Part shown: positions 40,627-62,454 of the stretch, piece by piece | Numbering within the stretch: the first letter of the stretch is position 1 | Layout: the number at the start of each line of letters is the position of its first letter | From: Microterricola viridarii | Lineage (GTDB): Bacteria; Actinomycetota; Actinomycetes; Actinomycetales; Microbacteriaceae | Length of the DNA: 64,000 bases | NCBI RefSeq assembly: GCF_001542775.1 | Contig: NZ_CP014145.1 | Span: 2,418,001-2,482,000, forward strand | Direction: 5' to 3' | The notes under the pieces: generated by a model | The model's input: the letters and a program-made list of their open reading frames with translations, nothing else | The model's database searches: none | What the model was told of the DNA's origin: nothing | Program-made: the position numbers and the translations under genes

Positions 40627-40692
40627 CTCTTCGCGCATCGTCAACCCCTGTGCCGCAGGGGTCAATTGCGCTCGGATGCCGCGCCCTAACGT
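40627..40692 (+). promoter_or_regulatory. conserved promoter element, copy F (MoaF-amidohydrolase operon)
   Basis: The 40 nt at 40627-40666, starting CTCTTCGCGCATCGTCAAC, match 59913-59952 at 37 of 40 positions. Both contain GTCAAC-N3-TGT (here 40640-40651) and GGTCAAT, followed 20-21 bp later by a -10-like TAACGT / TATCGT. It precedes the moaF-like start at 40787 by 120 nt. Confidence 0.6.
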
Positions 40693-43314: not shown

Positions 43315-43351
43315 CCCTCCGCGCCGTCGCGCGATGGCGCAACACAGACCG

Positions 43352-43367
43352 TCTACACTTGTTGACT
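43352..43367. promoter_or_regulatory. GTCAAC-N3-TGT site A at the tetR promoter
   Basis: TCTACACTTGTTGACT on the plus strand; the reverse complement contains GTCAAC-AAG-TGTAGA. It is bracketed by CAGAC (43345-43349) and GTCTG (43368-43372). It lies 60 bp before the tetR ATG, where a TetR protein would autoregulate. Confidence 0.55.
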
Positions 43368-43427
43368 GTCTGCGCGCTCGCTGAGCATGCAGAATGGATG
43401 CCAAGCCGAGCCAATGGAGGTGCCTGC

Positions 43428-44021
43428 ATGCCCAAGGTGATCGACCACGATCAACGCAGACGCGACATCATCGAGGTGACCCGCGGTCTCATCATCCAGG
43501 GTGGCATCGAGGCGGCCACCATGCGTGAGATCGCCGCGGAGGCCGGATTCGCCAATGGCGCGCTCAAGCACTATTTCCCCGGCAAGGACGACATCATCCA
43601 GGGCACCTACGAGCTTTCGCTCGCCCAGATGAGCGAGGTCGTTCGGTTGGCGGTCGAGGGCAAGCGCGGCCTCGCGGCGCTCCGCGGCATCAGTGAGGCG
43701 TCCCTGCCGCTGGATGCCGAGCGGACCACCGCCGCCCGCGTGCTGCTCTCGTTCTGGGAGCGGGCCGCCTCCAACGATCACCTGCACGAGATCTACGTCG
43801 ACCACCTCGTCATCTGGCGGAAGGCGCTGGCACAGTTCATCACCGAGGGCCGCGCCGATGGTGACATCCTGAGCAACACCCCGGACGAGCAGCTGATCCA
43901 GGAGCTCGTCACGATGAACGTCGGCGCGACCCTGATGAGCGTGATCAACCCGGAGCAGAACACCCCGGCACTGCAGCAGGCCCAGCTCGACGGCTTCTTC
44001 GAGCGGCTCGGGCGGCCGTAG
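43428..44021 (+). CDS. TetR family transcriptional regulator, BetI-like
   Basis: The product has 197 residues. N-terminal helix-turn-helix: 'RRRDIIEVTRGLIIQGGIEA', 'TMREIAAEAGFANGALKHYF', then 'GKDDIIQGTY'. The C-terminal ligand domain contains 'LLSFWERAASNDHLHEIYVD', as in BetI-type TetR proteins (TetR_C_6). ATG 43428 is chosen for the family N-terminus. It sits between the MoaF-amidohydrolase operon and the phosphotriesterase-methyltransferase block and is the likely owner of the GTCAAC-N3-TGT sites. Confidence 0.92.
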   Translation: MPKVIDHDQRRRDIIEVTRGLIIQGGIEAATMREIAAEAGFANGALKHYFPGKDDIIQGTYELSLAQMSEVVRLAVEGKRGLAALRGISEASLPLDAERTTAARVLLSFWERAASNDHLHEIYVDHLVIWRKALAQFITEGRADGDILSNTPDEQLIQELVTMNVGATLMSVINPEQNTPALQQAQLDGFFERLGRP

Positions 44022-44050
44022 GGCTTCGCCCTGCTCGACCAGCGGGGCGT

Positions 44051-44325
44051 GGTTTCGACAAGCTCAACCAGCGGGAAGCCGCTCTCCACCGTTGGCTCGA
44101 GGGAGCGCCAGCGACCGAGGCCGACGCCCGCACGAGCTCGCTGCGCCAGTTGGGCGGGAACCGCGCCAGCTCAACGGGCGCGGACCCGCCCGAATTGGCG
44201 CGGAAGCCGATCACGCGGGCTGCCGGGCTTCAGGGGCTGCGCTGCTCGTTCCTCACGGCGCGGCCCCCTCTAGCCAACGTGCAGATACACACCGCCCCGG
44301 GGTTTCGACGAGCTCAACCAGCGGG
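44051..44325. repeat. dispersed 25-nt repeats flanking an imperfect palindrome
   Basis: GGTTTCGACAAGCTCAACCA occurs at 44051 and, with one change, at 44301, each extended by GCGGG. Between them an imperfect palindrome (44143-44201, about 25-nt arms starting GCGCCA and ending TGGCGC) is seen. The reverse strand of the 25-mer encodes the 'LVELVET' peptide seen around many Microbacteriaceae genes. No gene is visible from 44022 to 44331. Confidence 0.7.
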
Positions 44326-44331
44326 GCAGGC

Positions 44332-45411
44332 TCAACCGGCGGTGGCGGCGGGGCGGGGCTCCCGGAAGGTGAGCGCTCTGGCGGGGTTGTCGACCATGAT
44401 GGCGCGGAGGGCGTCGTCACCCACGCCGAGCCGGCCGAGCGCCGGCAGGAAGTGCTCCGAGATGTAGCTGTAGCCGTGCCCGCCGTAGCGCTTCAGCTGC
44501 ACACGCTGGCAGACGTCACCGCCGAGCACGATCCGGTCGGCGTGGCCGTCGTCGACGAGCGCGGCGATGCCCGTGGCGACCGCGCGGTCGGTGAAGGGCC
44601 AGAGGGTGCCCCATGGGCTGCCCGGCGTGCCGAGGAAGTCGAACTCAACGAGGACACCGCGTGCCAGCAGCCGGCGCGCGAACGGCAGGTCGTCTCCGAG
44701 GGTGCCGGCGTGACCCATCACCACATTCCGGAAGTCGACGCCCTCCTCCTCGAGGATGTCGAGCACCCGGAACTTCTCCTCGCCGAAGCCACCCTGGTGG
44801 AAGGTGATCGGGGCGCCGGTGATGCGCGAGGCGCGCCCGCTGGCGCGCACGCTTTTCAGCTCGTTCGGCGTGAGCGGGTTGCCCTCGACGCCGACCTCGC
44901 CGATGACGCCGGAGCGGATCGTGGTGCCGTCGACGCCGACGGCGATATCGCGGACGATCTCATCGCTCATCTGCTCGACGGTCTTCTCGTCCATGTCTGC
45001 CGGGTGGAAGTTCTTCTCGTACCAGCCGGCGCCCATCACAATCTGCAGACCACTGGCCCGGGAGAGCTTGGCCAGCGAGCGGGCGTCGCGGCCGAGCCCG
45101 GTGTTGGAGACCTCGACCATGGTGCCGCCGCCCAGGGTGCGGAACTCCCCCACCTCGGCCAGCATCTCGTCGAAGTCGCCCAGCAGGTCGTTGTGCTCAA
45201 TGATGCGCCCCCGCCGCACGGCGGCGAGGTTCGCGAGGCTGAGCGGCTCCGTCGACTCCGGGGTGCCCCAGCCCGGCCGGGGGTTGTGCAGCGGGCGCCG
45301 GATGTCGATGAAGATGTGCTCGTGCATGAGCACCTGGCCGAGCGACTCCGGGGGCACCGGGCCGCCGACGGTGAGCACCTTTCCGGCGATGTTCGGGATC
45401 GCGGCGCTCAC
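44332..45411 (-). CDS. phosphotriesterase-family metallohydrolase (catalytically complete)
   Basis: The product has 359 residues of the PTE/lactonase amidohydrolase fold. All expected binuclear metal ligands are present: His30 and His32 ('LMHEHIF'), bridging Glu172 ('GVIGEVG'), His205 ('ITFHQGG'), His234 ('VMGHAGT') and Asp299 ('LGGDVC'). Glu instead of carboxylated Lys is usual in PHP/lactonase relatives. The GTG start overlaps the stop of the upstream paralogue by 4 nt (GTGA). The substrate is probably a lactone or ester; phosphotriester activity should not be assumed. Confidence 0.9.
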   Translation of the reverse strand: MSAAIPNIAGKVLTVGGPVPPESLGQVLMHEHIFIDIRRPLHNPRPGWGTPESTEPLSLANLAAVRRGRIIEHNDLLGDFDEMLAEVGEFRTLGGGTMVEVSNTGLGRDARSLAKLSRASGLQIVMGAGWYEKNFHPADMDEKTVEQMSDEIVRDIAVGVDGTTIRSGVIGEVGVEGNPLTPNELKSVRASGRASRITGAPITFHQGGFGEEKFRVLDILEEEGVDFRNVVMGHAGTLGDDLPFARRLLARGVLVEFDFLGTPGSPWGTLWPFTDRAVATGIAALVDDGHADRIVLGGDVCQRVQLKRYGGHGYSYISEHFLPALGRLGVGDDALRAIMVDNPARALTFREPRPAATAG

Positions 45412-46463
45412 GAGCGAGTCCCCTGCGCCGGGATGCTGAGCCAGCGCTGCGGGTTGGCCTCGGTCAGGGCCGCGAGCAGGCCGTCATCCGCCCCAAGCAT
45501 CCGCAGGTAGGGCAGGTACTGCTCGAGGAGGAAGCCGTAGCCGTTGCCGCCGAAGGCGTTCAGGTCGATCTTGCGCCGCACGCCCTGCGAGATCAGCAGC
45601 TGCCCGGCCACGCCGCGGGCGGCGAGGCCGAGGACCCCCAGGGCGATGTCGTGGTCGCTCACCTCGGTGAGGATCGTCGGGATGTCTCCCAGCTGATCGA
45701 ACTGCGTGTAGACGCCGCGCGCCAACACGGCCTCCAATTCATCCGGCCGGGCCAGGAGCGGCGCAGAGTCTGCGACCGCGATCTGGGATGCGGCCACGCC
45801 CTCGGCCTGGAGGATGTCGAGCACGGCGAGCGTGTCGGCCGTGCTCGCGGAGCGGGTGATGCTCACGGGCGCCCCGGTCTGGCGGGCGGCGGCGGCGACC
45901 GCCAGCAGGAGTCGCCGCTCCGCCTCGCGGGCGGGATCGATCGCACCGACCCGGCCGATGAGTCCGGCCCGGATGCCGTCGACGCCGACCTCGATCTCCG
46001 CCGCGATCTGGGCGGCGAGGCTCTCGACCGTTCTCCCGGCCAGTTCCGGGGACCAGACGGGGTGGTGCCATCCGGCCCCCATCACGACGGCGAGGCCGGT
46101 GGTCTCGGCGATCCGGCGGAGGGCGCGTGGGTTCCGGCCGAGGCCGATGCTCGTCTGGTCGACGATGGCCCCGCCGCCGAGCCGCCCGAACTCGCCGGCC
46201 TCGGCGATGGCCAGCAGCTCGTGGTCCAGGCGCATGTTGTCGCGGTTCGGGGCGCCCAGATTGAGCGCGCCCAGCATCTCGATGCCGACCGCTGCCCCAT
46301 AGAAGGCTGCCTCGGCGGCGGCCGTCGGGCGCGTGCGGCCGATGCGGCGCCAGCCCTCATCCGACTCCTCCGGCGTCGCGAAGTTCGCGATGAGGTGCTC
46401 GTGCGGGAGGGTGACACCGAGTGCGTGCGGCGCGCTGGGGCCGCTGACGGTCGAGACGAACAT
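45408..46463 (-). CDS. phosphotriesterase-like protein lacking most metal ligands
   Basis: The product has 351 residues and aligns along its length with the downstream paralogue. It keeps His21-x-His23 ('LPHEHLI'), but Arg171 replaces the bridging Glu ('GLIGRVG'), Arg204 replaces the first later His ('SITRSAS'), Asp232 replaces the second ('AVADSAP') and Gly294 stands at the catalytic Asp ('ISQGVRR'). It is therefore probably not a normal hydrolase. ATG 46463 has an AAGGAG site. Coupled translation with the complete enzyme suggests a hetero-oligomer. Confidence 0.8.
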   Translation of the reverse strand: MFVSTVSGPSAPHALGVTLPHEHLIANFATPEESDEGWRRIGRTRPTAAAEAAFYGAAVGIEMLGALNLGAPNRDNMRLDHELLAIAEAGEFGRLGGGAIVDQTSIGLGRNPRALRRIAETTGLAVVMGAGWHHPVWSPELAGRTVESLAAQIAAEIEVGVDGIRAGLIGRVGAIDPAREAERRLLLAVAAAARQTGAPVSITRSASTADTLAVLDILQAEGVAASQIAVADSAPLLARPDELEAVLARGVYTQFDQLGDIPTILTEVSDHDIALGVLGLAARGVAGQLLISQGVRRKIDLNAFGGNGYGFLLEQYLPYLRMLGADDGLLAALTEANPQRWLSIPAQGTRS

Positions 46464-46493
46464 TGCGCTCCTTGACGGTTCTGGGGTGCACTC

Positions 46494-46523
46494 CGCCGGC
46501 CGGGCAAGGGTGCCCGGCCGGCG
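46494..46523 (-). terminator. hairpin between methyltransferase and PTE genes
   Basis: Perfect 13-bp GC-rich stem, CGCCGGCCGGGCA (46494-46506) with TGCCCGGCCGGCG (46511-46523), loop AGGG. It may separate or attenuate transcription from the methyltransferase into the PTE pair. Confidence 0.6.
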
Positions 46524-46557
46524 AGTGGTCGTGCGCTCGGGCGGAGCGCTCGGGCGA

Positions 46558-47556
46558 CTAGACCGCCTCGGCCACGAGGATGCGCGGGCTGCCGGGCAGC
46601 GCGATCGTCTCGACGGGCTTCCAGCCGGTCGCGGCAAGCCACTCGGCCACCGTCGATTCCGGGTAGACGACGGTTCCGTCGATGTTGAAGTACTCGCCGG
46701 CGTGCAGGGCGTCGATCTTGCGCTGCACCGGGTTGTCGTCGAGGAAGAAGTCGAGCACGACCAGGTGCGCGCCCGGCGCGGCCGCGGCGCGCGCGTTGGC
46801 GAAGATCACGCGGTTCTGCGCGTCGTCGAAGCGGTGGATGACGTGGTTCACGAGCACCAGGTCGTGCTCGCCGCCCGGCTGCGCGGTCTCGGTGTCGCCG
46901 CCCTCGACGGTGGAGCGCTCGGCCAGGCCGGCCGCCTCGACGGCCTGCTGCACCGAGTCGGTGAAGTCGGGGGCGAACACGAAGCGGGTGTTCAGCTCGG
47001 GGTTGGCCTTCATGCCGTTCACGGCGAAGGCAGGGCTGAGGCCGCCGAAGTCCAGCGCGTTGCGGTAGCGGGAGAAGTCGAAGTGGGCGGCGAGCTGCTC
47101 TGCGTGCAACTCGTTGTAGGTCATGACGCCGGCCATGAAGTCACCCCAGCCGGCCTCGTCCAGCTCCAGGGTCCCGGCTTCGCCGGAGTCGACGGTGTCG
47201 TCGTAGCGCAGCCACTGCTTGTAGCTGATGTCGTTGAGGAAAGCGAGGAAGGGGGTGAGGTCGATGCCGGCGCCGTCCGCGGTGAGGTAGGCGGCGGCAT
47301 CCGGGGTCAGCGCGTAGCGGCCGGCCTCGCGGGTGAGCAGGCCCTGCGCCGTCATGCTGTCGGCGAGGATGCGCAGCTGCTGGGCGTTCACGCCGGTCGC
47401 CCCGACGAGCTCCTCGAGCGAGCGGGGGCCCTCGGCGAGCGCGGTGAAGAGGCCGACGCGGCTGGCGGCGAAGAGCTGCTTGGCCCCCATGAAGCCGATC
47501 GCGATGTCGAGGATCGCTGCGGGGGTTGATGCGGTGGTCGGCTGCGTTGCCGTCAT
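46558..47556 (-). CDS. O-methyltransferase-type protein (family 2)
   Basis: The product has 332 residues. A winged-helix dimerisation domain ('MGAKQLFAASRVGLFTALAE', 'LEELVGATGVNAQQLRILAD') precedes a class I methyltransferase domain. Motif I is unusual: 'ALDFGGLSPAFAV' replaces the usual D-V-G-G-G-x-G, while 'LVNHVIHRFDDAQN' occupies the catalytic His region. ATG 47556 has an AAGGAG site. Its divergent promoter carries GTCAAC-N3-TGT site B. Confidence 0.8.
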   Translation of the reverse strand: MTATQPTTASTPAAILDIAIGFMGAKQLFAASRVGLFTALAEGPRSLEELVGATGVNAQQLRILADSMTAQGLLTREAGRYALTPDAAAYLTADGAGIDLTPFLAFLNDISYKQWLRYDDTVDSGEAGTLELDEAGWGDFMAGVMTYNELHAEQLAAHFDFSRYRNALDFGGLSPAFAVNGMKANPELNTRFVFAPDFTDSVQQAVEAAGLAERSTVEGGDTETAQPGGEHDLVLVNHVIHRFDDAQNRVIFANARAAAAPGAHLVVLDFFLDDNPVQRKIDALHAGEYFNIDGTVVYPESTVAEWLAATGWKPVETIALPGSPRILVAEAV

Positions 47557-47623
47557 GGTTTTCTCCTTGAGTGCGGGGCCGGCGTCGTCGCTCGACCCGC
47601 GTCTGGTCGCGGTGTACGGAAAC

Positions 47624-47695
47624 TCTACAAGCGTTGACAATAAAAGTGCAATCTTCTTTCGCCCATCGATGCCTCAGTTTCAACACGCGTAGAAT
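47624..47695. promoter_or_regulatory. divergent promoters with GTCAAC-N3-TGT sites B and E
   Basis: Site B (47624-47639, TCTACAAGCGTTGACA; reverse complement GTCAACGCTTGTAGA) overlaps a minus-strand promoter TTGCAC-18-TAGAGT for the methyltransferase gene. Site E (47678-47693, TTTCAACACGCGTAGA) is a weaker copy overlapping the plus-strand -10 TAGAAT (47690-47695). That -10 would start transcription at the ATG of the hydrolase gene (47701). Confidence 0.6.
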
Positions 47696-47700
47696 AACGA

Positions 47701-48495
47701 ATGGCGCGACGAGGCGCCCCGAGCGAATGCGAGTGCGACATGCCCCTCTCCCAGCAGACCTTCTCCCCCGCCGGCGCGAGCACCGGCGCCCCCGTCGTGC
47801 TCATCCACGGCTTCGCGTCCTCCGGCGACGCCGACTGGGTGGCCGCCGGCTGGCCGGATGCCGTCACCGCCGCCGGGCGCACGGCGGTCGTGATCGACCT
47901 GCCCGGCCACGGCGACAGCACTGCGGCCATCACGGAGGGCGCGGAGACGAGCGCGGTCGTCCGGGCACTCGGCGAGGCCGTCGACGCGGCGGTCGCGGCA
48001 TCCGGTGCCGAGCACGCCGACGTCGTCGCCTACTCGCTCGGTGCCCGCCTGGCCTGGGAGCTGCCCGCGGCGAGCCCGCGCGTGCGCCGGCTCGTGCTCG
48101 GCGGCATCAGCCCGTTCGAGCCGTTCGCGCAGCTCGACACCGCCGAGCTGCGCGCCGTCGCCGCCGGCAGCGCCGAGCCCACCTCACCGCTCGTCGGCAT
48201 GATGGCGCAGATGGTAACGGCCCCCGGCAACGACAGCGAGGCGCTCATCGCCCTCATCGACGGGCTGGCGAGCGAGCCATTCCTGCCGGGCGCGCAGGCG
48301 GACGACGCCACGCCGTCCGGCGCACCGCGGGTGCCGACGCTGTTCGTGGCCGGCAGCGACGACATGATGACGGGCGGCATCGATGGCCTCGTCGCGCTCG
48401 TGCCCGACTCCGCGCTGCTCCGGGTGCCCGGCGACCACCGCGGCGCGCTCACCTCGCCCGAATTCCGCGCGGCGGCGATCGCCTTCCTGGGCTGA
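47701..48495 (+). CDS. alpha/beta hydrolase, probably leaderless
   Basis: The product has 264 residues. 'VVLIHGFASSGDADW' forms the oxyanion region, 'VVAYSLGARLAW' holds the nucleophile Ser, 'FVAGSDD' the acid and 'VPGDHRGALT' the His. The TAGAAT -10 ends 6 bp before ATG 47701 and there is no ribosome-binding site, so translation is probably leaderless. A second in-frame ATG at 47740 also lacks an SD site. The stop lies 4 bp from the convergent AKR gene. The substrate is likely an ester or thioester. Confidence 0.82.
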   Translation: MARRGAPSECECDMPLSQQTFSPAGASTGAPVVLIHGFASSGDADWVAAGWPDAVTAAGRTAVVIDLPGHGDSTAAITEGAETSAVVRALGEAVDAAVAASGAEHADVVAYSLGARLAWELPAASPRVRRLVLGGISPFEPFAQLDTAELRAVAAGSAEPTSPLVGMMAQMVTAPGNDSEALIALIDGLASEPFLPGAQADDATPSGAPRVPTLFVAGSDDMMTGGIDGLVALVPDSALLRVPGDHRGALTSPEFRAAAIAFLG

Positions 48496-48499
48496 GCGG

Positions 48500-49468
48500 C
48501 TACCAGCTGCCGTCGGCATTGACCCCCCGGTCGAGCCAGAGCTCGGCCGTCGCCGAGCGGATCGCCTCGGCGCCGATGCGCTCCAGCAGCGCCAGGGCGC
48601 CGAGGTTGTCCTCGAGCTGCTCGAGCCGTGACACCCCGAACAGCACGTTCGCGGTGGCCGGGTTGGCCAGGCAGAAGGCGATGCCGAGCTGCGTCGGCGT
48701 CGCCCCCAGGCCCGTGGCGATGCGCTCGACCTCGGGGTACGCGGCGACGATCTGCTCCCGGATGCCGCCGACGTCGGCGCCGATCTTGCGCGCGGGGACG
48801 AGCTTGCCGGCCAGGATGCCGCCCTCGAAGATGTCGGACGCCTGCAGCGCGAGCCGGCCGGAGCGGAACAGCTCACCGTAGTGCTCCCCCTCTGCCATGG
48901 TGCGCCGGACCAGCCCGTACTTCAGCTGTGCAAAGGTGGGCGGCGTCAGCCCCTCCGCCTCGGCGAAGTCGAGGGCGAGGGTAATGTCGGCCGCCTGCCA
49001 GTTGTTGACGCCCCAGCTGTCGAAGCGCCCGGCCGCAATCTCGGCGGCGACGTCGGCGACGACCTGCCGCACGTCGATCGGGCTCATGTAGTCGCCGACG
49101 ACGACCGTGTCGGCCTTGTCGATGCCGATGCGCGAGAGCGAGGTCTGCATCTGGCTGGCGAAGCTCGTGGTCGGGTACTCCCAGAGCCAGAGCTTGCCGC
49201 AGAGTAGGTAGTCCGCGCGGGCCAGGCCGGCCGCACGCACCGCCTCGCCGAAGATCAGGTCGGTGCGGGCGTTCTCGGCGTGCGGGCCCATGTTGTAGTG
49301 CGCGACGTCGAAGAAGGCGGCACCGACATCCGCCGCGCGCCGGATGAGGGCGACGGAGTCGTCGAACTCCATCCGGTCCCAGGTGCTCCAGGAGCCCAGC
49401 GCGAACACCGGCACCTGGGGGCCGACCGGGCCGAGACGGCGGGTGGGGACGGTTCCTTCAAAACTCAT
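48500..49468 (-). CDS. aldo-keto reductase with atypical tetrad (first paralogue)
   Basis: The product has 322 residues. AKR features include 'FALGSWSTWDRM', Asp54 and Tyr58 in 'FFDVAHYNMG' and the Lys in 'LLCGKLW'. The usual catalytic His segment reads 'VVVGDYMSP', with Asp instead of His. 'SWGVNNWQAADITLALDFAE' and 'FAQLKYGLVRR' match the cofactor-side strands. The paralogue at 53052 shows the same change. Divergent from an SDR gene across site D. Confidence 0.85.
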   Translation of the reverse strand: MSFEGTVPTRRLGPVGPQVPVFALGSWSTWDRMEFDDSVALIRRAADVGAAFFDVAHYNMGPHAENARTDLIFGEAVRAAGLARADYLLCGKLWLWEYPTTSFASQMQTSLSRIGIDKADTVVVGDYMSPIDVRQVVADVAAEIAAGRFDSWGVNNWQAADITLALDFAEAEGLTPPTFAQLKYGLVRRTMAEGEHYGELFRSGRLALQASDIFEGGILAGKLVPARKIGADVGGIREQIVAAYPEVERIATGLGATPTQLGIAFCLANPATANVLFGVSRLEQLEDNLGALALLERIGAEAIRSATAELWLDRGVNADGSW

Positions 49469-49500
49469 GGGGGCCTCCTCGAAGCGACATCGCTTTATTT

Positions 49501-49516
49501 TCTACGTTCGTATAAT
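49501..49516. promoter_or_regulatory. divergent promoter with degenerate site D
   Basis: TCTACGTTCGTATAAT lies between the divergent AKR and SDR genes. It contains a perfect TATAAT -10 for the plus strand and, on the minus strand, ACGAACGTAGA resembling the right half of the GTCAACG-N2-TGTAGA motif. It is the weakest member of the motif set. Confidence 0.4.
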
Positions 49517-49563
49517 ATAACCCCATGCGCGCCGAGGTGGCGTGAGACAAAGGAGTTTCCATC

Positions 49564-50304
49564 GTGACCACATCCCGTACCGTGCTCATCACCGGCGGAG
49601 GCGGCGGCATCGGCCGCGGCATCGCCCAGGCGTTCCTCGACCAGGGCGACCGCGTCGTGCTGGCCGACGTGAACGCTGACGCCGTCGCGGCCGTCGCCGC
49701 CGAGATCGGCGCGGCATCCGTCGCCCTCGACATCACCGACCCCGCGGCCGTCACCGGCGCGGTGGCCGCGGTGGCCGAAGAACACGGCCCCATCGACGTG
49801 CTCGTGAACAACGCCGGCATCCTCTCGGTGCACGGGGCCATTACCGAGCTGGCGGCCGAGGCGTACCGCTCGATCGTCGACGTCAACATCGTCGGCACGT
49901 TCAACGCGACCCAGGCCGTCGCGAACCACATGATCGCCGCTGGCACCCGCGGCACGATCGTCAACATCTCGTCGATCGGCGGCAGGCAGCCGACGCCCGG
50001 CATGGGCGCATACGAGTCGAGCAAGGCCGCCGTCGACTCGCTCACCCGTTGGGCGGCGATCGAACTGGCCGGCCACGGCATCCGCGTCAACGCCGTCGCC
50101 CCCGGCCCCGTGCTGACCCCCATGCTGCAGATGGGCATGCCGGAGGGCTCGCCTGCTCGCACCGCCTGGGAGGCGCGGGTTCCGCTCGGCGTGCTCGCCG
50201 CCGTCGAGGATGTCGCGCCCGCCGTGGTGTTCCTCGCCGGGCCGGGCGCCGGTCACATCACGGGCGTCAGCCTGCCGGTCGACGGCGGGCAGCTGCTCGC
50301 CTGA
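49564..50304 (+). CDS. SDR family oxidoreductase
   Basis: The product has 246 residues: 'VLITGGGGGIGRGIAQAFLD', 'VLVNNAGILS' and the catalytic 'GAYESSKAAVDSLTRW' (Tyr-x3-Lys), then 'RVNAVAPGPVLTPML'. The GTG start has an AAAGGAG site. The wider glucose/3-oxoacyl reductase clade gives no substrate. It is divergent from the AKR gene and convergent with the amidohydrolase, separated from that gene by a strong hairpin. Confidence 0.92.
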   Translation: MTTSRTVLITGGGGGIGRGIAQAFLDQGDRVVLADVNADAVAAVAAEIGAASVALDITDPAAVTGAVAAVAEEHGPIDVLVNNAGILSVHGAITELAAEAYRSIVDVNIVGTFNATQAVANHMIAAGTRGTIVNISSIGGRQPTPGMGAYESSKAAVDSLTRWAAIELAGHGIRVNAVAPGPVLTPMLQMGMPEGSPARTAWEARVPLGVLAAVEDVAPAVVFLAGPGAGHITGVSLPVDGGQLLA

Positions 50305-50315
50305 CCTCCTCCCGC

Positions 50316-50356
50316 AACGCCGACGGCCCCCGCAGTTCGCGGGGGCCGCCGGCGTT
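50316..50356. terminator. bidirectional terminator hairpin
   Basis: AACGCCGACGGCCCCCGC (50316-50333) pairs with its complement at 50339-50356 with one mismatch and a 5-nt loop, between convergent SDR and amidohydrolase genes. Confidence 0.8.
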
Positions 50357-50368
50357 TGGGGCCCAGCG

Positions 50369-51796: not shown

Positions 51797-51824
51797 ATCT
51801 CCTCCTTGAGAGGTTCGCAATTTA

Positions 51825-51842
51825 TGTCAACGTATGTAGAAT
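51825..51842. promoter_or_regulatory. GTCAAC-N3-TGT site C in a divergent promoter
   Basis: TGTCAACGTATGTAGA (51825-51840) is the best motif copy. It overlaps the plus-strand -10 TAGAAT (51837-51842) of the ADH operon and lies 29 bp from the minus-strand amidohydrolase start, so a bound repressor would block both. Confidence 0.6.
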
Positions 51843-51905
51843 ATCCCAAACCGGCGGCGGGGTCGACAGTGTTGCGATCCGACAGGCCGGACAAAGGAGC
51901 ATTCA

Positions 51906-53021
51906 ATGACGATTTCCCTTCCGACATCAACCCGTGCGGCCGTGCTGACCGCCCACGGAGAGGCTCTCACGCTGCAGGAGATTCCACTCCCGGCCGAGAT
52001 TGAGGCCGGGGCGGCGCTCGTGCGCGTCGCCTGCACGACGCTCTGCGGCACCGATATCGAGATCTGGCACGGCAAGATGACCTTCCCGGGCATGCTGCCG
52101 ATGGTCCTCGGCCACGAGATGGTCGGCGAGATCGTCGCGCTCGGCCCCGGAACCAGCGACGCCCTCGGCCGCAGCCTCGCGGTCGGCGACCGCATCGGCT
52201 GGTCCGAGTCCACCTGCGGGCAGTGCTTCGGCTGCACCGTGCTGCGCGAGCCCGTCGCCTGCTCGAAGCGCGGCTACGGCTTCCTGCAGCGCTCGGATGT
52301 CGCGCCCTATGCGACCGCGGGGCTCGCCGAGTACGCCTACGTCACCCCCGGCGCGGCCAAGCTGCTGCTGCCGGAAGAGGTCAAGGACACCTGGGCGTCG
52401 ATGGCCGGCTGCGCGGCGAAGACAGTGCTGCGCGCATTCCAGCGGGCGGGCGGCGTGCGGCCCGGTTCGCGCGTGGTGGTGCAGGGCTCCGGCGCCCTCG
52501 GCATCTTCGCGACGGCCGTCGCGCACCTCTCCGGTGCCGGCACCGTCATCACCGTCGGGGCCCCCGCCGAGCGCCTGGCCGCCGCGCGCCGCTTCGGCGC
52601 CGACGCCGTCGTCGACATCGCCGACGGCTCGGAGGCCACCATCGCGCGGGTGCTCGAGCTCACCGACGGGCAGGGCGCCGACCTCGTCCTCGACTTCGCC
52701 GGCGCCCCCAGCGTCGGGCCGGAGGCCATCGCGATGGCCGCCCAGCGCGGAACCGTCGTCGTCGTCGGCTCGACCGGCCCCACCGGCCAGCCGATCACCC
52801 TCTCGGCGATCATGGGCAAGGAACTCACGCTCGTCGGCTCGCTCAACGGCGACATTTCCGACTACTACCGGGCCATCGAGTTCTTCCGCGCCTTTGCCGA
52901 ACGGATGCCCTGGGACGAGCTGTTCAGCGAGCCCGTCGGCCTCTCGCAGGCGTCAGCCAAGATCGCCACCATGTCTGCCCTTGGCGAGATCAAAGCCGTC
53001 ATCGACCCCCGCCTGCCCTAG
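51906..53021 (+). CDS. zinc-dependent alcohol dehydrogenase (second copy)
   Basis: The product has 371 residues. Zinc ligands are Cys in 'TLCGTDIEIW', His-Glu in 'LGHEMVGEIV' and a structural Cys cluster 'CGQCFGCTVLREPVAC'. The Rossmann motif is 'VVVQGSGALGIFATAVAHL'. Resembles the threonine-dehydrogenase/sorbitol-dehydrogenase branch; the substrate is unknown. It heads an operon with the second AKR and two esterases. Confidence 0.9.
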   Translation: MTISLPTSTRAAVLTAHGEALTLQEIPLPAEIEAGAALVRVACTTLCGTDIEIWHGKMTFPGMLPMVLGHEMVGEIVALGPGTSDALGRSLAVGDRIGWSESTCGQCFGCTVLREPVACSKRGYGFLQRSDVAPYATAGLAEYAYVTPGAAKLLLPEEVKDTWASMAGCAAKTVLRAFQRAGGVRPGSRVVVQGSGALGIFATAVAHLSGAGTVITVGAPAERLAAARRFGADAVVDIADGSEATIARVLELTDGQGADLVLDFAGAPSVGPEAIAMAAQRGTVVVVGSTGPTGQPITLSAIMGKELTLVGSLNGDISDYYRAIEFFRAFAERMPWDELFSEPVGLSQASAKIATMSALGEIKAVIDPRLP

Positions 53022-53051
53022 CCGGCCGCGCTCAGAAGAAGGAAGAGCACC

Positions 53052-54035
53052 ATGACACCCACCGCCCCGCCCACCGCGGCGCCCGTCATCCCCCGGCGCG
53101 GCATCGGCACCTCCGGCATCGAGGCCTCCGTGCTCTCGCTCGGCTCGTGGCACGCCTACGACCGGATGCACTTCGAAGACGCCGTCGGGCTCGTGCAGAC
53201 GGCCATCGCCCGCGGCATCAACCTGTTCGATGTCGGCGTGTACGCCTTCCCCGGTGGGCCGCCCGCCTTCACCGATGTGCTGTTCTCCGCCATCGTGCGG
53301 GCCGCGGGCATCAACCGCGCCGACTACCTGCTCTCGGAGAAGCTCTGGGTCGAGGGATTCGGCCCCGACGGCTTCCGCCCGCAGCTGGAACGTGCCCTGT
53401 TCCGGGTCGGCACCGACTACTCCGACCTCGTGATCCTCGGCGACCTGCGCCGCGACGACCTCGAGCTGCGCGACCTCGTGCACGACCTCGCCGGGCTGCA
53501 GGAGTCCGGGATCATCCGGGCCTGGGGCGTCAACAACTGGTCGGCCACGAACATCCAGGCGCTCCTGGACATCGCGGCGGCCGAGGGGGTGCCCGGCCCG
53601 CAGATCGCCCAGTTGAAGTACAGCGTCTCCCGCCGCTCCATCCCCGATGGCGAGCCGTTCTCCCGGCTCTGGGAGCAGGGCATCACCATGCAGGCCTCCG
53701 ACGTGATGGAAGGCGGCATCCTCGCCGGCAAGATCGCGCCGGAGCGCGAGGTCGGCCGCGACCCCGGCGGCATCCGTGCGGCCATCATCGACTCGGTCCC
53801 GGCCGTCACCGCCCTCGCCGAGGAGCTGGGCGCAACCCCGGCACAGCTGGCCATCGCGTTCACCCTGACCCACCCCGCGAACACCACGACCCTGTTCGGC
53901 GCGACGCGCCTAGAGCAGCTTGAGCAGAACTTCGCGGCCATCCACCTCGTCGAGCGCGTCGGCGCCGACGCCCTCCGCGCCCGTGTCGCGCCCTTCTGGG
54001 CAGACAACGGCATCGTCGATCCCGAAGGGCCGTGA
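53052..54035 (+). CDS. aldo-keto reductase with atypical tetrad (second paralogue)
   Basis: The product has 327 residues, similar throughout to the AKR at 48500. Asp and Tyr appear as 'LFDVGVYAF' (three residues between them), Lys as 'LLSEKLWVEG', and the usual His position reads 'VILGDLRRDD', again Asp. 'AWGVNNWSATNIQALLDIAA' and 'IAQLKYSVSRR' are shared blocks. It follows the ADH by 30 bp and overlaps the next gene by 4 nt. Confidence 0.85.
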   Translation: MTPTAPPTAAPVIPRRGIGTSGIEASVLSLGSWHAYDRMHFEDAVGLVQTAIARGINLFDVGVYAFPGGPPAFTDVLFSAIVRAAGINRADYLLSEKLWVEGFGPDGFRPQLERALFRVGTDYSDLVILGDLRRDDLELRDLVHDLAGLQESGIIRAWGVNNWSATNIQALLDIAAAEGVPGPQIAQLKYSVSRRSIPDGEPFSRLWEQGITMQASDVMEGGILAGKIAPEREVGRDPGGIRAAIIDSVPAVTALAEELGATPAQLAIAFTLTHPANTTTLFGATRLEQLEQNFAAIHLVERVGADALRARVAPFWADNGIVDPEGP

Positions 54036-55051
54036 CCGCCATGACGACAACAGACCGCACCGTTCCGGTGCCCGTTCCGTTCGACCCCGAGATGCTGCCC
54101 GTGCTCGAGTTCATGGCCGCCAACCCGCAGCCGCCGCTCTCCTGGGAGACGCTGCCGGCGACCCGCCCCGGCCTGGCCACCGCCTTCCCCGCCCCGGCCG
54201 AGGCGATCGGCGACCGCCCCGTCGACAGCGAGGAACGCGTCATCCCTGGCCCGGCGGGCGCGCCCGACCTCGAGATCACCGTCTTCCGGCCGCGCGGCCA
54301 CAGCGCGGCCGCCCCGGCGCTGCCCGGCCTGTTCAACATCCACGGCGGCGGCATGATCATCGGCCACCGACACTGGGAGGCTGAGCGGCTGATCCAGCTC
54401 GTCGTCGAGCTCGGCGTCGTCGCGGTGAACGTCGAGTACCGTCTCGCCCCCGAGCACCCCTTCCCCGCCGGCGTCGAGGACTGCTACGCCGGCGTGAGCT
54501 GGATGTCGGAGCACGCCGCCGAGATCGGCGTCGACCCTGAGCGCATCGTCATCATGGGCGGAAGCGCCGGCGGCGGCTTCTCGGCGGCCGTCGCCCTGCT
54601 CGCCCGGGATCGGGGCGGCCCCGCCCTGGCCGGCCAGCTGCTGCTCTGCCCGATGCTCGACAATACCAACAGCACGGTCGCCAGCTTCCAGTACGACGGC
54701 ATCGGCACCTGGATGCGCGACGCGAACCTGCTGGCCTGGCGCTGCGTGCTCGGCGAGGAGCTCGCCCTCAGCACCGACGCCTCTCCCTACGCTGCGCCCA
54801 GCCGGGCCACCGACCTCAGCGGCCTGCCGCCGGCGTTCATCGAGGCCGGGGCCGCCGAGATGTTCCGCGACGAGGATGTCGACTACGCGAGCCGCATCTG
54901 GGCGACGGGCGGCAACGCCGAACTGCACATCTGGGCCGGCGGGTTCCACGGCTTCGACATGTACGCACCGGGCTCCGAGATCGCCAGGGCCGCCCTGGCC
55001 ACCCGCAACTCCTGGCTCCGCCGCACGCTCCAGATCGTGGACGAGCGATGA
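54032..55051 (+). CDS. HSL-family alpha/beta hydrolase (esterase), first of tandem pair
   Basis: The product has 339 residues of the hormone-sensitive-lipase family: 'FNIHGGGMIIG' is the oxyanion HGGG motif, 'IMGGSAGGGFSAAVA' carries the nucleophile Ser, 'FRDEDVDYA' the Asp and 'GGFHGFDMY' the His. GTG 54032 overlaps the AKR stop (GTGA); ATG 54041 is an alternative. It should hydrolyse short-chain esters or lactones; relatives include the monoterpene lactone hydrolases. Confidence 0.9.
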   Translation: MTAMTTTDRTVPVPVPFDPEMLPVLEFMAANPQPPLSWETLPATRPGLATAFPAPAEAIGDRPVDSEERVIPGPAGAPDLEITVFRPRGHSAAAPALPGLFNIHGGGMIIGHRHWEAERLIQLVVELGVVAVNVEYRLAPEHPFPAGVEDCYAGVSWMSEHAAEIGVDPERIVIMGGSAGGGFSAAVALLARDRGGPALAGQLLLCPMLDNTNSTVASFQYDGIGTWMRDANLLAWRCVLGEELALSTDASPYAAPSRATDLSGLPPAFIEAGAAEMFRDEDVDYASRIWATGGNAELHIWAGGFHGFDMYAPGSEIARAALATRNSWLRRTLQIVDER

Positions 55052-56037
55052 AGCCGACCCCCGTTCCCTACGATCCGGAGCTGGTCGACGGCTTGGCCGC
55101 CTTCCTCGCCCTCGTCGAGCGGATCCCGCTGCGCGCGCACAGCATCCTCGCCAACCGCGCGCATTTCGCCACGATCATCCCGCCCATCCAGGCCCAGGTC
55201 GGCGAGCTGCCGATCGATTGGGAGAACCGGGTCATCCCCGGCCCCGCCGGGGCGCCAGACGTGGAGATCACCGTCATCCGGCCGCGGCGCGACACGGCGG
55301 CGGGCACGGTCGGCCCGCCAGCACCCGGCGTGCTCGGCATCCACGGCGGCGGCATGGTGCTCGGCACCCGCTTCTTCGGCACGGGAGAGCTCATCGAACT
55401 CGCGCTGACCTACGGCATCGTCGGAGTCGCCGTGGAGTATCGCCTCGCCCCGGAACACCCGGGCACGGCGGCCGCGGAGGACTGCTACGCCGCGCTCGAG
55501 TGGTTCGCGGCCAACGCGGAGGAGCTCGGCGTCGACCCCGACCGGCTCCTGGTCTCCGGCGCCAGCGCGGGCGGGCTGCTCTCCGCCGCCGTCGCCCTGA
55601 TGGCCCGCGACCGCGGCGGCCCCGCCCTGGCCGGCCAGCTGCTGAACTGCCCGATGCTCGATGACCGAAACGAGACGGTGTCGAGCCACCAGTACGACGG
55701 CATCGGGGCCTGGGACCGCAACAACAACGACACCGGCTGGAACGCCCTGCTCGGCGCGCAGCGCTTCACCGACGCCGTGTCGCCCTACGCCGCGCCGGCG
55801 CGCGCGACCGACCTCGGCGGGCTGCCGCCCGCCTACATCGAGGTCGGCTCTGCCGAGGTGTTCCGCGACGAGGACGTCGACTACGCGATGCGCATCTGGG
55901 CGAGCGGCGGCCAGGCCGAGCTGCACGTCTGGGCCGGCGCGTACCACGGCTTCTCCGGGTTCTCCCCCGACGCGATCGTCTCGCGTGCGGCCCTTGCCGC
56001 CCGCGACAGCTGGATCCGCCGCACCCTGCGGCTGTAG
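55048..56037 (+). CDS. HSL-family alpha/beta hydrolase (esterase), second of tandem pair
   Basis: The product has 329 residues and is a close paralogue of the preceding esterase: 'LGIHGGGMVLG', 'VSGASAGGLLSAAVALMARD', 'FRDEDVDYAMRIW' and 'GAYHGFSGF' give a complete triad. It overlaps the previous gene by ATGA. The tandem duplication suggests either two ester bonds in the substrate or acquisition of a new specificity. Confidence 0.9.
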   Translation: MKPTPVPYDPELVDGLAAFLALVERIPLRAHSILANRAHFATIIPPIQAQVGELPIDWENRVIPGPAGAPDVEITVIRPRRDTAAGTVGPPAPGVLGIHGGGMVLGTRFFGTGELIELALTYGIVGVAVEYRLAPEHPGTAAAEDCYAALEWFAANAEELGVDPDRLLVSGASAGGLLSAAVALMARDRGGPALAGQLLNCPMLDDRNETVSSHQYDGIGAWDRNNNDTGWNALLGAQRFTDAVSPYAAPARATDLGGLPPAYIEVGSAEVFRDEDVDYAMRIWASGGQAELHVWAGAYHGFSGFSPDAIVSRAALAARDSWIRRTLRL

Positions 56038-56114
56038 CCGCCGCCTGCACCCAACGGATGCCGCCCCGGCCGCCGCCTGCGCGGCATCCGCCACCTCGTT
56101 TGAATCGGGACCCC

Positions 56115-57332
56115 ATGACCACCGTCTCACCCGTGCGCATCATGAGCGTGCGTCGCAGCGTGCTGCTGCTCGGAGCGCTCGAGGCCTTCGGGCCGCTCTC
56201 GATGGACCTGTACATGCCGACGCTCCCGCAGCTGGCGGCGACCCTCGGCACCAGCGACGCCCTCGCACAGGCGACCATGTCGGTGTGCATGATCGGGCTC
56301 GGCCTCGGCCAGCTCATCGCCGGCCCGCTCAGCGATCGCTTCGGCCGGCGCACGCCGATCCTCATCGGCGTCGCGCTGTTCGCGCTGTTCTCGCTGGCCT
56401 GCGTCTTCGCGCCGACGATCGAGGTGTTGCTCGTCGCCCGGCTGTTGCAGGGGCTCGCGGGCTCGGCCGGCATCGTGGTGACCCTCGCCATCGCGCGCGA
56501 CATGTACAGCGGAACAGAGCTCTCGCGCATGCTGTCGCTGCTCGCGCTGGTCGGGGCGTCGGCGCCCATCATCGCCCCGGTCATCGGCGGCCAGCTCGCC
56601 CTGGTCATGGACTGGCGCGGCATCTTCGGTGTGCTGGCCGGAATCGGCACCGCCATCTTCGTGCTCACCCTCGTGCTGCTGAGAGAGACGCTGCCGCCGG
56701 AGCAGCGGCACGGCGGCGGGTTCGGCACGACGGCGCAGCACTTCGGCGTGCTTGCGCGCGACCGGCTGTTCGTCGTCATGCTGATCGTCTCGGCGGCCGG
56801 CGGCGTCGCCTTCTTCAGCTACCTGTCGATGTCGAGCTTCGTGTTGCAGGACGAGTTCGGGCTGAGCCCGCAGCTGTTCAGCATCTGCTTCGCCGCGAAC
56901 GCCCTGGCCAACATGGGCGGTGCGCAGCTGAGCAGGCTGGCGGTGAGCCGCTTCGGCCCCGTGCGGATGTACCTCGCCGGCCAGGCCGCCACGGCCCTCG
57001 CCGCCGCTGCACTGCTTCTCGTCGTGCTCGCCGGGGGCGGCGTGGTCGGGGTGCTCATCGTGCTCGCCGTCTATCTGTTCTGCGGTGGCGTCGGCGGCCC
57101 GAACGGCACGACGCTGGCGCTCGGCGGGCACTCGGAGCGCGCCGGCACCGCCTCGGCCGTACTGGGCACGGCGATGTTCGTCGTCGGCCCGATCGTCGCC
57201 CCGCTTGCGGCACTCGGTGGGGCGACGGCGCTCGCCATGGCGCTGACCATCGCGATCTCCGCTGTCGTCGCCGGCACGCTCGCCTGGACGGTGGTGCGCC
57301 CGCTGCTGCGCACCAGCACGCTCGAACCCTGA
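56115..57332 (+). CDS. Bcr/CflA-type MFS drug or metabolite exporter
   Basis: The product has 405 residues and about 12 membrane segments: 'MDLYMPTLPQLAATLG' and 'LIAGPLSDRFGRRTPILIGV' are the Bcr/CflA N-terminal signatures, with 'LQGLAGSAGIVVTLAIARDM' after. ATG 56115 begins the family sequence; the preceding 19 codons are proline/arginine filler. Its place after the esterases suggests export of a toxic intermediate or of the substrate itself. Confidence 0.88.
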   Translation: MTTVSPVRIMSVRRSVLLLGALEAFGPLSMDLYMPTLPQLAATLGTSDALAQATMSVCMIGLGLGQLIAGPLSDRFGRRTPILIGVALFALFSLACVFAPTIEVLLVARLLQGLAGSAGIVVTLAIARDMYSGTELSRMLSLLALVGASAPIIAPVIGGQLALVMDWRGIFGVLAGIGTAIFVLTLVLLRETLPPEQRHGGGFGTTAQHFGVLARDRLFVVMLIVSAAGGVAFFSYLSMSSFVLQDEFGLSPQLFSICFAANALANMGGAQLSRLAVSRFGPVRMYLAGQAATALAAAALLLVVLAGGGVVGVLIVLAVYLFCGGVGGPNGTTLALGGHSERAGTASAVLGTAMFVVGPIVAPLAALGGATALAMALTIAISAVVAGTLAWTVVRPLLRTSTLEP

Positions 57333-57372
57333 CCGAGTCGAACACTGACTGAGTCGAACGCCGCCCGCTGCG

Positions 57373-58110
57373 CTACTCCTGATCCCGGTCGGAGCAACTC
57401 CGGGAGTAGGAGACCACGAGCGGGGCGAAGCCACGGCCGGCCCAGAACGGGGCGGATGCCGGGTTGTCGGCGATGTAGTGCAGCGCGACCCGGCTGAGGC
57501 CGGCCGCGCTCAGCCACTCCATCGCCCGGTCGGCAAGCGCTCCGCCGATGCCGCGGCCTCGCGCCGACGCCGTCACGCTCAGCACGGAAAGGTAGCCATG
57601 GCGCTCCGGCAGCCCGAGCGCCCGCTCCGCGGCCGATGCAGCGACATCCTGAACCACGACCATGCCGGCTGGGCCGCCCCGACCATCCGCGGCCTCCGCC
57701 ATGAACACGGCGGTGCCGGGATCGAGGAGCCAGCCGTCGACGATGCCGTCGAACAGGGCCGGCGGCTGGTGGAGTGAGGTGCCCGCCGTCGTGTTGGCCG
57801 CCTGGAACAGTGCCTCCTCCCTGGCCAGCGCCGACAGCGCGGCCCGGTCACCCGCGGTTGCCGGGCGGATGCCGGCCGCATCCCGCCGCCGGGCATCGAC
57901 CCTGCGGGCCGCCGCATCGGGCACGGCCACGTCACGCGCAGCGAAGATGGCCCCCGGCCGCAGTCCGTTGGCCATCAGCTCCGCCGCCGCCAGATCGTCG
58001 GATGCCGCGGCCTCCACGTTCAACCGCCCGATGCCCTCCGCCCGTGCCGCGGCGACGAGGGCCGCGAACGGCTGCCCGTCGGCGCCCGGCCGCCAGTCGC
58101 CGAGCGCCAC
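57373..58110 (-). CDS. GNAT family N-acetyltransferase, uncertain start
   Basis: The product has 245 residues from GTG 58110. The acetyl-CoA loop is 'VLSVTASARGRGIGGALADR', followed by 'VALHYIADNPASAPFWAGRG'. The N-terminal half may be a second, degenerate GNAT domain. The GTG has no ribosome-binding site, and the same frame stays open up to the stop codon of the GMC gene with protein-like sequence ('FARHTPEEQEWSYLSPSYAS') but no ATG, GTG or TTG. The true N-terminus may be damaged or use a rare start. Confidence 0.65.
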   Translation of the reverse strand: MALGDWRPGADGQPFAALVAAARAEGIGRLNVEAAASDDLAAAELMANGLRPGAIFAARDVAVPDAAARRVDARRRDAAGIRPATAGDRAALSALAREEALFQAANTTAGTSLHQPPALFDGIVDGWLLDPGTAVFMAEAADGRGGPAGMVVVQDVAASAAERALGLPERHGYLSVLSVTASARGRGIGGALADRAMEWLSAAGLSRVALHYIADNPASAPFWAGRGFAPLVVSYSRSCSDRDQE

Positions 58111-58236
58111 CGACGCGTAGCTCGGCGACAGGTAGCTCCACTCCTGCTCCTCCGGCGTGTGCCGCGCGAAGTGCGCCGTGATGCGCGCCCCGCCGCCCGC
58201 CGCCGCCCCGTCGAAGACCCGCGTCCCGCCGATGGC

Positions 58237-59841
58237 CTACTCCCCGGCGAGGATGAAGCGGGCGGCCTGCTCGCCGATGAGCACGGCGGGTGCGTTCGTG
58301 TTGCCCGTCGTGACCCGCGGCATGATCGACGCGTCGGCGACGCGGAGCCCGTCGACCCCGTGCACGCGGAGGCGCGGCGTCACGACGGCGCCGGCCTCGA
58401 CCGAGACGCCCATCGTGCACGTGCCGACCTGGTGGTGGTAGGTGACGGCGTGCGCGCGCACGTAGTCGCGCAGCGCGGCCTCCTCGTCGACATCCGCACC
58501 GCCGATCTCGGTGGCCGGGTAGACCTCGCTGGCCCCCCATTCTCCGGCGAGCGCCTGCTCGCGCCCGATCTGCCGACACTGCCGCACCGAGGCGACGAGC
58601 GAGCGCACGTCGTCCTCGTCTTCGAGCGCGGCGAGGTCGATCAGCAGCGGATCGTGCGGCGCCGGGCCGCTGAGGGTGACCGAGCCGCGGCTTTTCGGGG
58701 TGACGATCCCGGCCATCAGCGAGAAGCCGGAGTCTGGCCCCGTCATGCCGTCCTGGTACATCGGCACGCTGAAGTGGATGGGTTGGGTGTCCGGCAGTTC
58801 CAGCTCGGGCAGGCTCCTCCAGAACAGGTGCGACTGGGTCACCGAGACGCCGGGGCGGGGTGGGTCGATGGGCCGTTCCGTCGCGAAGATGACGGGGGCG
58901 AGCAGGTGGTCGTGCAGGTTCTTGCCGACTCCGGGCAGGTCGACGACCGAGCGGATGCCGTGCGCGCCGAGCTCGCTCGCCGGACCGATGCCGGAACGCA
59001 GCAGCACCCGTGGCGAGTCGAGGGCCCCGGCCGCCAGCACGACCTCGTCGGCGAGGAGCGTCTGCACCTCGCCGCCCTGCTCGAACTCGACACCGATCAC
59101 GCGCGGTGCGGCGCCGTCACGCGGGGCGTCGAAGAGGAGCCGGTGCACGTGGCATCCGGTGCTCACCGTGAGCAGCTCGGAGTCGGCGACGGGCTTGACG
59201 TAAGCCATGTAGCTGTTCAGCCGTTGCCCGTCTCGAATGGTCAGCTGCTGCTGCGACACCCCGTCGAGGCTCTGCCCGTTGTAGTCGGGGTTGTGTTCCA
59301 GCCCGCCCTGCACCGCCGCTTCGATGATCGCCGCCTGAATCGGCTCGAGCTCGAAGGTGTCGGTCACGTCGAGGGGGCCGTCGTGCCCGCGGAGCGCGGC
59401 GGCCTGCGCGTCGAGCGGCGCCCGCCCGGTGAAGCGCTCGATCTGCTTGTAGACCGGGAGCACGTCGCTCCAGGCCCAGCCGTCGTTGCCGAGAGCCGCC
59501 CAGTGGTCGAAGTCCGCCGGTGCGCAACGCACCCAGATCATGGCGTTCAACGAATGGGAGCCGCCGAGCACCTTGCCACGGGGCAGATGCAGGCGCCGAC
59601 CGGCGGCGTGCTCCTGCGGCACGGTGAAGTAGTCCCAGTCGTCCGGGCTGTGCCAGAGCTCGCCCATGCGGCTCGGGTCGTGGATGGCCGGGTTGCTGTC
59701 GTCACCGCCGGCCTCGAGCAGGTGCACACGCACACCGGCGTCGACCAGGCGCCGCGCGATGACGGAGCCGGCCGAGCCCGCCCCCACCACGATGACGCTC
59801 TGCGGTACCCCGCGCTGCCCTGTTGTGTCTGCGGCTGCCAT
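58237..59841 (-). CDS. GMC-family FAD oxidoreductase
   Basis: The product has 534 residues, choline dehydrogenase/alcohol oxidase type. 'VIVVGAGSAGSVIARRLVDA' binds FAD, 'RGKVLGGSHSLNAMIWVRCA' is GMC signature 1, 'GALDSPRVLLRSGIGPASEL' signature 2, and the catalytic His lies in 'YHHQVGTCTMG' with Asn in 'NTNAPAVLIGE'. ATG 59841 has a GGAGAGG site. It should oxidise an alcohol, producing an aldehyde for the divergent dehydrogenase at 60011. Confidence 0.93.
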   Translation of the reverse strand: MAAADTTGQRGVPQSVIVVGAGSAGSVIARRLVDAGVRVHLLEAGGDDSNPAIHDPSRMGELWHSPDDWDYFTVPQEHAAGRRLHLPRGKVLGGSHSLNAMIWVRCAPADFDHWAALGNDGWAWSDVLPVYKQIERFTGRAPLDAQAAALRGHDGPLDVTDTFELEPIQAAIIEAAVQGGLEHNPDYNGQSLDGVSQQQLTIRDGQRLNSYMAYVKPVADSELLTVSTGCHVHRLLFDAPRDGAAPRVIGVEFEQGGEVQTLLADEVVLAAGALDSPRVLLRSGIGPASELGAHGIRSVVDLPGVGKNLHDHLLAPVIFATERPIDPPRPGVSVTQSHLFWRSLPELELPDTQPIHFSVPMYQDGMTGPDSGFSLMAGIVTPKSRGSVTLSGPAPHDPLLIDLAALEDEDDVRSLVASVRQCRQIGREQALAGEWGASEVYPATEIGGADVDEEAALRDYVRAHAVTYHHQVGTCTMGVSVEAGAVVTPRLRVHGVDGLRVADASIMPRVTTGNTNAPAVLIGEQAARFILAGE

Positions 59842-59912
59842 GACGCCCTCTCCGTTGAAGTTTCTACGACCCTCCCACCTGGGGCGGCCGGAGCGGAATG
59901 ACGGGGCCGGCT

Positions 59913-59979
59913 CTCTTCGCGCATCGTCAACTCCTGTGCCGCATCGGTCAATGCCCTGTTGCCGCACCACACCTATCGT
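59913..59979 (+). promoter_or_regulatory. conserved promoter element, copy G (aldehyde dehydrogenase)
   Basis: 59913-59952 repeats the 40-nt element of 40627-40666 with 3 mismatches, including GTCAAC-TCC-TGT (59926-59937) and GGTCAAT. A -10-like TATCGT follows at 59974-59979, and the ALDH ATG lies 58 nt after the element. The divergent GMC gene starts 72 bp away. Confidence 0.6.

Positions 59980-61614: not shown

Positions 61615-62450
<836 letters not shown>

Positions 62451-62454
<4 letters not shown>

Follow-up and report, generated by a model that had tools for sequence, protein, structure and literature searches.

A catabolic gene island of Microterricola viridarii with a probable TetR operator and a separate direct-repeat element

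The 64,000-nucleotide stretch of the Microterricola viridarii genome analysed here (the window; contig NZ_CP014145.1, C1:2418001-2482000) carries a catabolic gene island in whose promoters the motif GTCAAC-N3-TGT recurs. An initial annotation, made from the sequence of the window, had read all copies of this motif as one element, marking a regulon of a local TetR-family protein. The copies exist, and the interpretation is partly supported. Very likely, two regulators share the island: a TetR-family protein encoded at 43428..44021 (+ strand), acting on an AT-flanked inverted repeat (class A), and a second one, probably of the AraC family, acting on a separate direct repeat (class B). The motif thus merges two distinct elements, and two of its five copies in the window belong outside the probable TetR regulon.

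The only exact matches to GTCAAC-N3-TGT in the window are at 40640 (+), 43355-43366 (-), 47627-47638 (-), 51826 (+) and 59926 (+), the five copies already listed, one of them a base off (51825 for 51826). Fewer than one match had been expected by chance; the computed value is 0.13, and none of 100 shuffled sequences reached five. The bare motif is not in excess across the complete genome, a single contig of 3,689,726 bases: it occurs nine times and its reversed pattern seven times. Six of the nine copies, however, fall in a 26.4-kb stretch of this block. The extended form GTCAAC-N3-TGTAGA is present four times in the genome and never as the reversed pattern. Three of these are in the window, exactly the number reported before, and the fourth, at C1:2485057, lies 3 kb beyond the end of the window.

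Class A comprises sites at 43351, 47623, 51826, 47679 and 49500, as well as the one 3 kb past the window, and the inverted repeat is clearest at 43351-43366, GTCTACACTTGTTGAC. The initial annotation had suggested scanning the genome and comparing the promoters of related genomes, and both approaches bear out this class. Exact TCWACRNNYGTWGA occurs at five places genome-wide, all in the cluster (43352, 47624, 47680 and 51827 in the window and C1:2485057 past it), and once as the reversed control. A genome-wide scan allowing two mismatches was uninformative (245 matches against 580 for the control). A matrix of 24 columns, made from four sites of the window genome and their reverse complements, additionally recovers 49500 at 26.9 bits, and the five sites in the window score 22.2 to 31.0 bits.

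Site 1 (43351..43366, 28.9 bits) matches TCWACRNNYGTWGA exactly and has its centre about 69 bp before the start of tetR, where it is the probable autoregulatory operator; it is conserved in three genomes of the same genus (G001, G002 and G004). Sites 2 (47623..47638, 30.2 bits) and 3 (47679..47694, 22.2 bits), both exact matches, share one divergent promoter (47623-47694), 56 bp from each other, between the genes of an O-methyltransferase-like protein (OMT, - strand) and an alpha/beta hydrolase (ABH, + strand). Site 2 overlaps a -10-like TAGAGT on the - strand and site 3 a TAGAAT on the + strand. The 24-mer of site 2 is identical in the same three genomes and the 56-bp pair recurs in them; paired class A sites at other spacings were seen in several relatives. 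Site 4 (49500..49515), between an aldo/keto reductase gene (AKR1, - strand) and a short-chain dehydrogenase gene (SDR, + strand), is no exact match to TCWACRNNYGTWGA and is conserved in the same three genomes. Sites 3 and 4 had been described as weaker relatives, at 47678 and 49501, and are good members of class A. Site 5 (51826..51841, 31.0 bits, exact) overlaps TAGAAT between the genes of an amidohydrolase (AmH2, - strand) and an alcohol dehydrogenase (ADH, + strand). Site 6, at C1:2485057, is located between the gene of an ABC substrate-binding protein (SBP) and the HpaH gene. The six sites cover five promoter regions. The proposed overlap with -10 hexamers can be seen for 47623 and 51826; at the tetR site, the strand named faces away from tetR.

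Class A is very probably the operator of the local TetR. This assignment, which is drawn from sequence comparison, is based on the confinement of the sites to the cluster, on their being absent together with TetR from one other genome of the genus, and on their occurrence near relatives of TetR. The regulator has 197 amino acids with the Pfam domains TetR_N and TetR_C_6, and its N-terminal helix-turn-helix domain (PF00440) scores 50.2 bits against a gathering cut-off of 24. The genomes that keep the site in the tetR promoter encode orthologs with 97% (G001), 79% (G002) and 98% (G004) identity, and each has five exact class A sites at orthologous places. In G003, also of the same genus, the TetR ortholog is absent (best match 28% identity, E 3.3e-8) and there are no exact sites. 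The other 95 genomes of a 99-genome set, G003 included, contain 33 with any exact site and at most four per genome; in the single genome that reaches four, the control also gives four.

Further support comes from 80 loci around TetR relatives, the best 80 of at least 550 loci (at least 594 stretches matched) from named genomes; the search used an alignment of 13 TetRs and peptide patterns including the recognition helix. The nearest relative among them is from Microterricola pindariensis. One locus, L131, is identical to L092, and is counted in the 80-locus figures and left out of the 79-locus figures. Class A sites reaching 20 bits are present in 72 of the 80 loci, or 71 of 79 once the duplicate is removed, versus none of 80 reversed sequences. 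Counted by position, with 1.56 million scanned, 170 sites reach 20 bits against none in the control, and 221 reach 17 bits against one. In the 79 loci, 220 sites score 17 bits or more; 184 of them are located no further than 350 bp upstream of a core gene, and no core gene contains one. Class A sites were found around relatives down to about 36% identity, and at 36-40% identity they adjoin TetR genes with differing neighbours. The scoring also covered L009-L037 (29 loci, of which 26 gave a row and L029-L031 none). Among these are 14 loci of more distant TetRs, L021-L028 and L032-L037, each about 3.5 kb long, in which no score exceeds 10.3 bits.

The genes that carry an upstream site in the 79 loci are led by AKR1 (38 of 38 matches), SBP (15/16), AmH2 (27/31) and OMT (34/42), followed by SDR (37/46, a count that may include SDR paralogs), ADH (14/29), ABH (18/41), copper amine oxidase (9/23), TetR itself (32/83), AKR2 (3/22) and the ABC ATPases (7/62). 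No upstream site was found for AmH1 (0/15), MoaF (0/10), GMC oxidoreductase (0/5), aldehyde dehydrogenase (ALDH, 0/7), both esterases or the rest.

Two other explanations of class A bear on this assignment. The sites could be nothing but shared core-promoter sequence, with a -10 TAGAAT and a -35 TTGACA, and no operator at all. TAKAAT is indeed found in 52 of 147 unique sites and TTGAC in 21 of them, and the many sites with only one exact half add to the weight of this explanation. Such sequence would, however, recur genome-wide, whereas exact TCWACRNNYGTWGA is confined to the cluster, stands at no unrelated promoter and is absent from G003. Furthermore, of the 135 unique 24-base sites that reach 20 bits, 53 keep an exact TCWAC in both halves, more than a pair of promoter hexamers would call for. 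Promoter hexamers alone were rejected on these two grounds, confinement and the paired TCWAC, and we regard a core-promoter origin as extremely improbable. It is also improbable, if a little less so, that class A is read by another regulator, either a TetR paralog or a factor encoded elsewhere, with the adjacent TetR a bystander. This would account for some Agromyces and Leucobacter loci, in which there are two TetR paralogs and the sites stand before the one of lower identity, and for Klugiella, which has the TetR and no site near it. It fits poorly with the window genome, where the next TetR match reaches only E 4.5e-11 (26% identity), with the site in the tetR promoter and its loss together with TetR in G003, and with the sites beside relatives of 36-40% identity that have different neighbours.

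Several observations count against the assignment of class A to the local TetR. The 80 loci were partly found by a recognition-helix peptide, and are therefore no sample of TetRs at large. The exact TCWAC is present in both halves in the 53 sites mentioned, in one half in 80 and in neither in 2; the halves were counted separately, as the column table combines both strands of every site and is therefore symmetrical by construction. Thirty-six of the 220 sites scoring 17 bits or more were left without an assigned core gene, and in the Agromyces and Leucobacter loci with two TetR paralogs the reader of the site is ambiguous. Eight of the 79 loci stay below 20 bits, and in G037, whose TetR (35% identity) has another helix, 20 kb contain nothing that scores above 9.2 bits. 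Among the 79 relatives, 37 have a site of 15 bits or more in the 300 bp preceding their own tetR and 42 lack one; in many of the 42, an SBP gene that has a class A site is located on the same strand, about 5 kb upstream. In Klugiella (L043/L059) the TetR is 56% identical with the same helix residues, yet there is no cluster and no site near tetR, and the locus is among the 72 only by a 20.1-bit match 7.4 kb away. By eye, a different inverted repeat, AGTTTG...CAAACT, is seen upstream of tetR (at 10369) in L043. The Klugiella protein has possibly changed its specificity.

The two remaining copies of the motif, at 40640 and 59926, form class B. Here GTCAAC is the first half of a direct repeat, GTCAAC-N15-GTCAAT, with the second GTCAA 21 bases on. 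One element (40640..40666, +) is located upstream of moaF (start 40787) and the other (59926..59952, +) upstream of the ALDH gene (start 60011). If all five copies were operators of the local TetR in one regulon, the nine bases common to them and the clustering of six of the nine genome copies in this block would be explained. The class A matrix, however, scores at most -1.3 bits around 40640 and 4.6 bits around 59926, and the two sites have a layout of their own: a 26-base pattern built from them matches no other place in the genome within three mismatches, and of three genome matches to GTCAAY-N15-GTCAAY two are those before moaF and ALDH. G003, moreover, retains class B before ALDH; since it has neither a TetR ortholog nor an exact class A site, class B is independent of TetR. 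We consider a single regulon highly improbable, and the proposal of a regulon of the local TetR thus stands for the class A sites, over about 24 kb, and falls for 40640 and 59926.

The element before moaF is present in G001 and G004 and absent in G002, where moaF directly follows the amine oxidase gene. The one before ALDH is found in G001, G002 and G004, and in G003 at three mismatches from the search pattern. In the latter genome an AraC regulator (89% identity), an amino-acid permease, a copper amine oxidase and ALDH are encoded together, with class B 84 bp before ALDH. A weaker, class-B-like GTCAAG-N15-GACAAG precedes the copper amine oxidase gene in the window (36996..37022, +) and in G001, G002 and G003, and is also seen in L038, L040 and L158.

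The candidate reader of class B is a FeaR-type AraC activator encoded at 24080..25033 (+ strand; AraC_binding_2, PF14525, 109.2 bits; PF12833, 72.8 bits). The genome encodes no other PF14525 protein, and the counterparts of this one in G001-G004 are 89-95% identical. Some facts speak against this part of the interpretation. The link between AraC and class B rests on co-location and on this being the sole PF14525 protein, and G023 encodes an AraC of this type (63%) and has no good class B site. The G003 match has its three mismatches, and four other matches at that distance (in G001, G002, G003 and G023) have no known class B context. In the window, the AraC gene is followed by genes for an ADH, an SDR and a second MoaF-domain protein (27147-27962) in the region 24080-28390, so that MoaF occurs twice in the window.

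In the model that we propose, the target of a TetR dimer would be an inverted repeat close to TTCTACRNNYGTAGAA, about 16-22 bp long and flanked by AT-rich sequence. In its ligand-free form the dimer would block RNA polymerase at its own promoter and at the OMT/ABH, AKR/SDR, amidohydrolase/ADH and ABC/HpaH promoters. A pathway compound would release it, and the dispersed transcription units would be switched on together. Class B, with its 21-bp pitch and its second repeat near the -35 region, would probably be read by the FeaR-type AraC at 24080, which may drive moaF and ALDH and perhaps the amine oxidase.

The genes under this putative control were assigned by Pfam. The class A targets are OMT (46558..47556, -), ABH (47740..48495, +; domain found on a longer frame from 47701), AKR1 (48500..49468, -), SDR (49564..50304, +) and AmH2 (PF07969, 50369..51796, -; domain found on a longer frame to 51820, the start being taken by eye from the ribosome-binding site). 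Behind site 5, a probable operon on the + strand (51906..57332) encodes the ADH, a second aldo/keto reductase (AKR2), two Abhydrolase_3 esterases and an MFS transporter. Peptide-type ABC transporter genes (61615..64000, -), namely an ATPase (61615-62454) and a permease-plus-ATPase frame (62451-63998), are probably the end of an operon whose SBP gene, past the window, has the sixth class A site. The genes linked to class B encode the copper amine oxidase (37108..39120, +; also over the cut-off of NCBIfam PRK11504), the MoaF-domain protein (40787..41638, +) and ALDH (60011..61423, +). Two tandem genes of the phosphotriesterase family (44332-46463, - strand) are located between tetR and the methyltransferase gene.

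Past the window, HpaH, HpaE and HpaD, all above their NCBIfam cut-offs, are encoded together with a fumarylacetoacetate-hydrolase family protein, pointing to a predicted breakdown of homoprotocatechuate. The copper amine oxidase would fit aromatic amines as substrates, and induction by a compound derived from an aromatic amine is a likely role of the system. Searches of solved structures with the methyltransferase, amidohydrolase, aldo-keto reductase, SBP and MoaF did not reveal the substrate. The best solved-structure match to the TetR alignment is PDB 2nx4 (E 1.2e-61), listed merely as a TetR-family transcriptional regulator.

In kind, this regulon is ordinary, a TetR-family local repressor of a catabolic cluster. 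KstR and NicR2 are TetR-family local repressors with inverted-repeat operators at the promoters of catabolic clusters. The repressor described here is of the same kind, with other genes and, as far as we are aware, another operator; the KstR model of NCBIfam gives it 32.8 bits against a cut-off of 280. The choline-responsive BetI shares TetR_N and TetR_C_6 with the local TetR, and a GMC oxidoreductase and an aldehyde dehydrogenase are encoded nearby. The earlier description as BetI-like is correct at the level of the Pfam domain TetR_C_6 and does not extend to identity, as both NCBIfam BetI models stay far under their cut-offs (57.3 against 118 and 56.7 against 201.3 bits). A BetI-type operator at choline-to-betaine genes was likewise rejected, on the lack of an upstream class A site at GMC and ALDH genes in the relatives given above. 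In Escherichia coli, FeaR is an AraC-family activator that goes with the copper amine oxidase TynA and the aldehyde dehydrogenase FeaB. The proposed class B branch resembles this system in all three components, and differs in its actinobacterial host, its inclusion of a MoaF gene, and a site that is unlike that of FeaR as we know it.

The control of the amine oxidase seems to vary between lineages. In Arthrobacter and Cryobacterium, 19 of 20 loci have a divergent copper amine oxidase gene beside tetR, and a site stands just before tetR in 14 of the 20 at 17 bits or more and in 18 at 15 bits or more. In a tree of 102 rows, in which the bootstrap had not settled, the autoregulated state takes about 13 changes. 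The TetR module and its sites are also found in Cucumibacter marinus and Devosia (L109 and L110; Alphaproteobacteria), whose TetRs group with those of Microbacterium with a support of 84/79, which is not strong. This suggests a possible horizontal transfer.

Among the papers listed in literature searches, which mostly did not extend to subscription journals, no report of this regulon was found. A broader reading, which we offer tentatively and to which we give somewhat less than an even chance, is that of an undescribed mobile catabolic module marked by the TetR/operator pair. It would consist of a peptide-type ABC importer, a hydrolase, an O-methyltransferase-like protein, two aldo-keto reductases, an amidohydrolase, an ADH and esterases, and would feed a route through aromatic amines and homoprotocatechuate. 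The module and its operators would have spread among Actinomycetota and into Devosiaceae, and the control of the amine oxidase would have been rewired between lineages, with the TetR site facing the divergent amine oxidase gene in most of the 20 Arthrobacter and Cryobacterium loci and an AraC-type element at that place in Microterricola.

The two classes provide an example of how a short shared consensus can fuse two unrelated elements. In place of a loose motif there is now a defined operator, which has a probable repressor and six sites and is matched exactly nowhere else in the genome. Its matrix extends the predicted regulon to dozens of actinobacteria and to two Devosiaceae. Such an operator would permit a direct ligand screen for the substrate of the pathway, and could supply a biosensor part.

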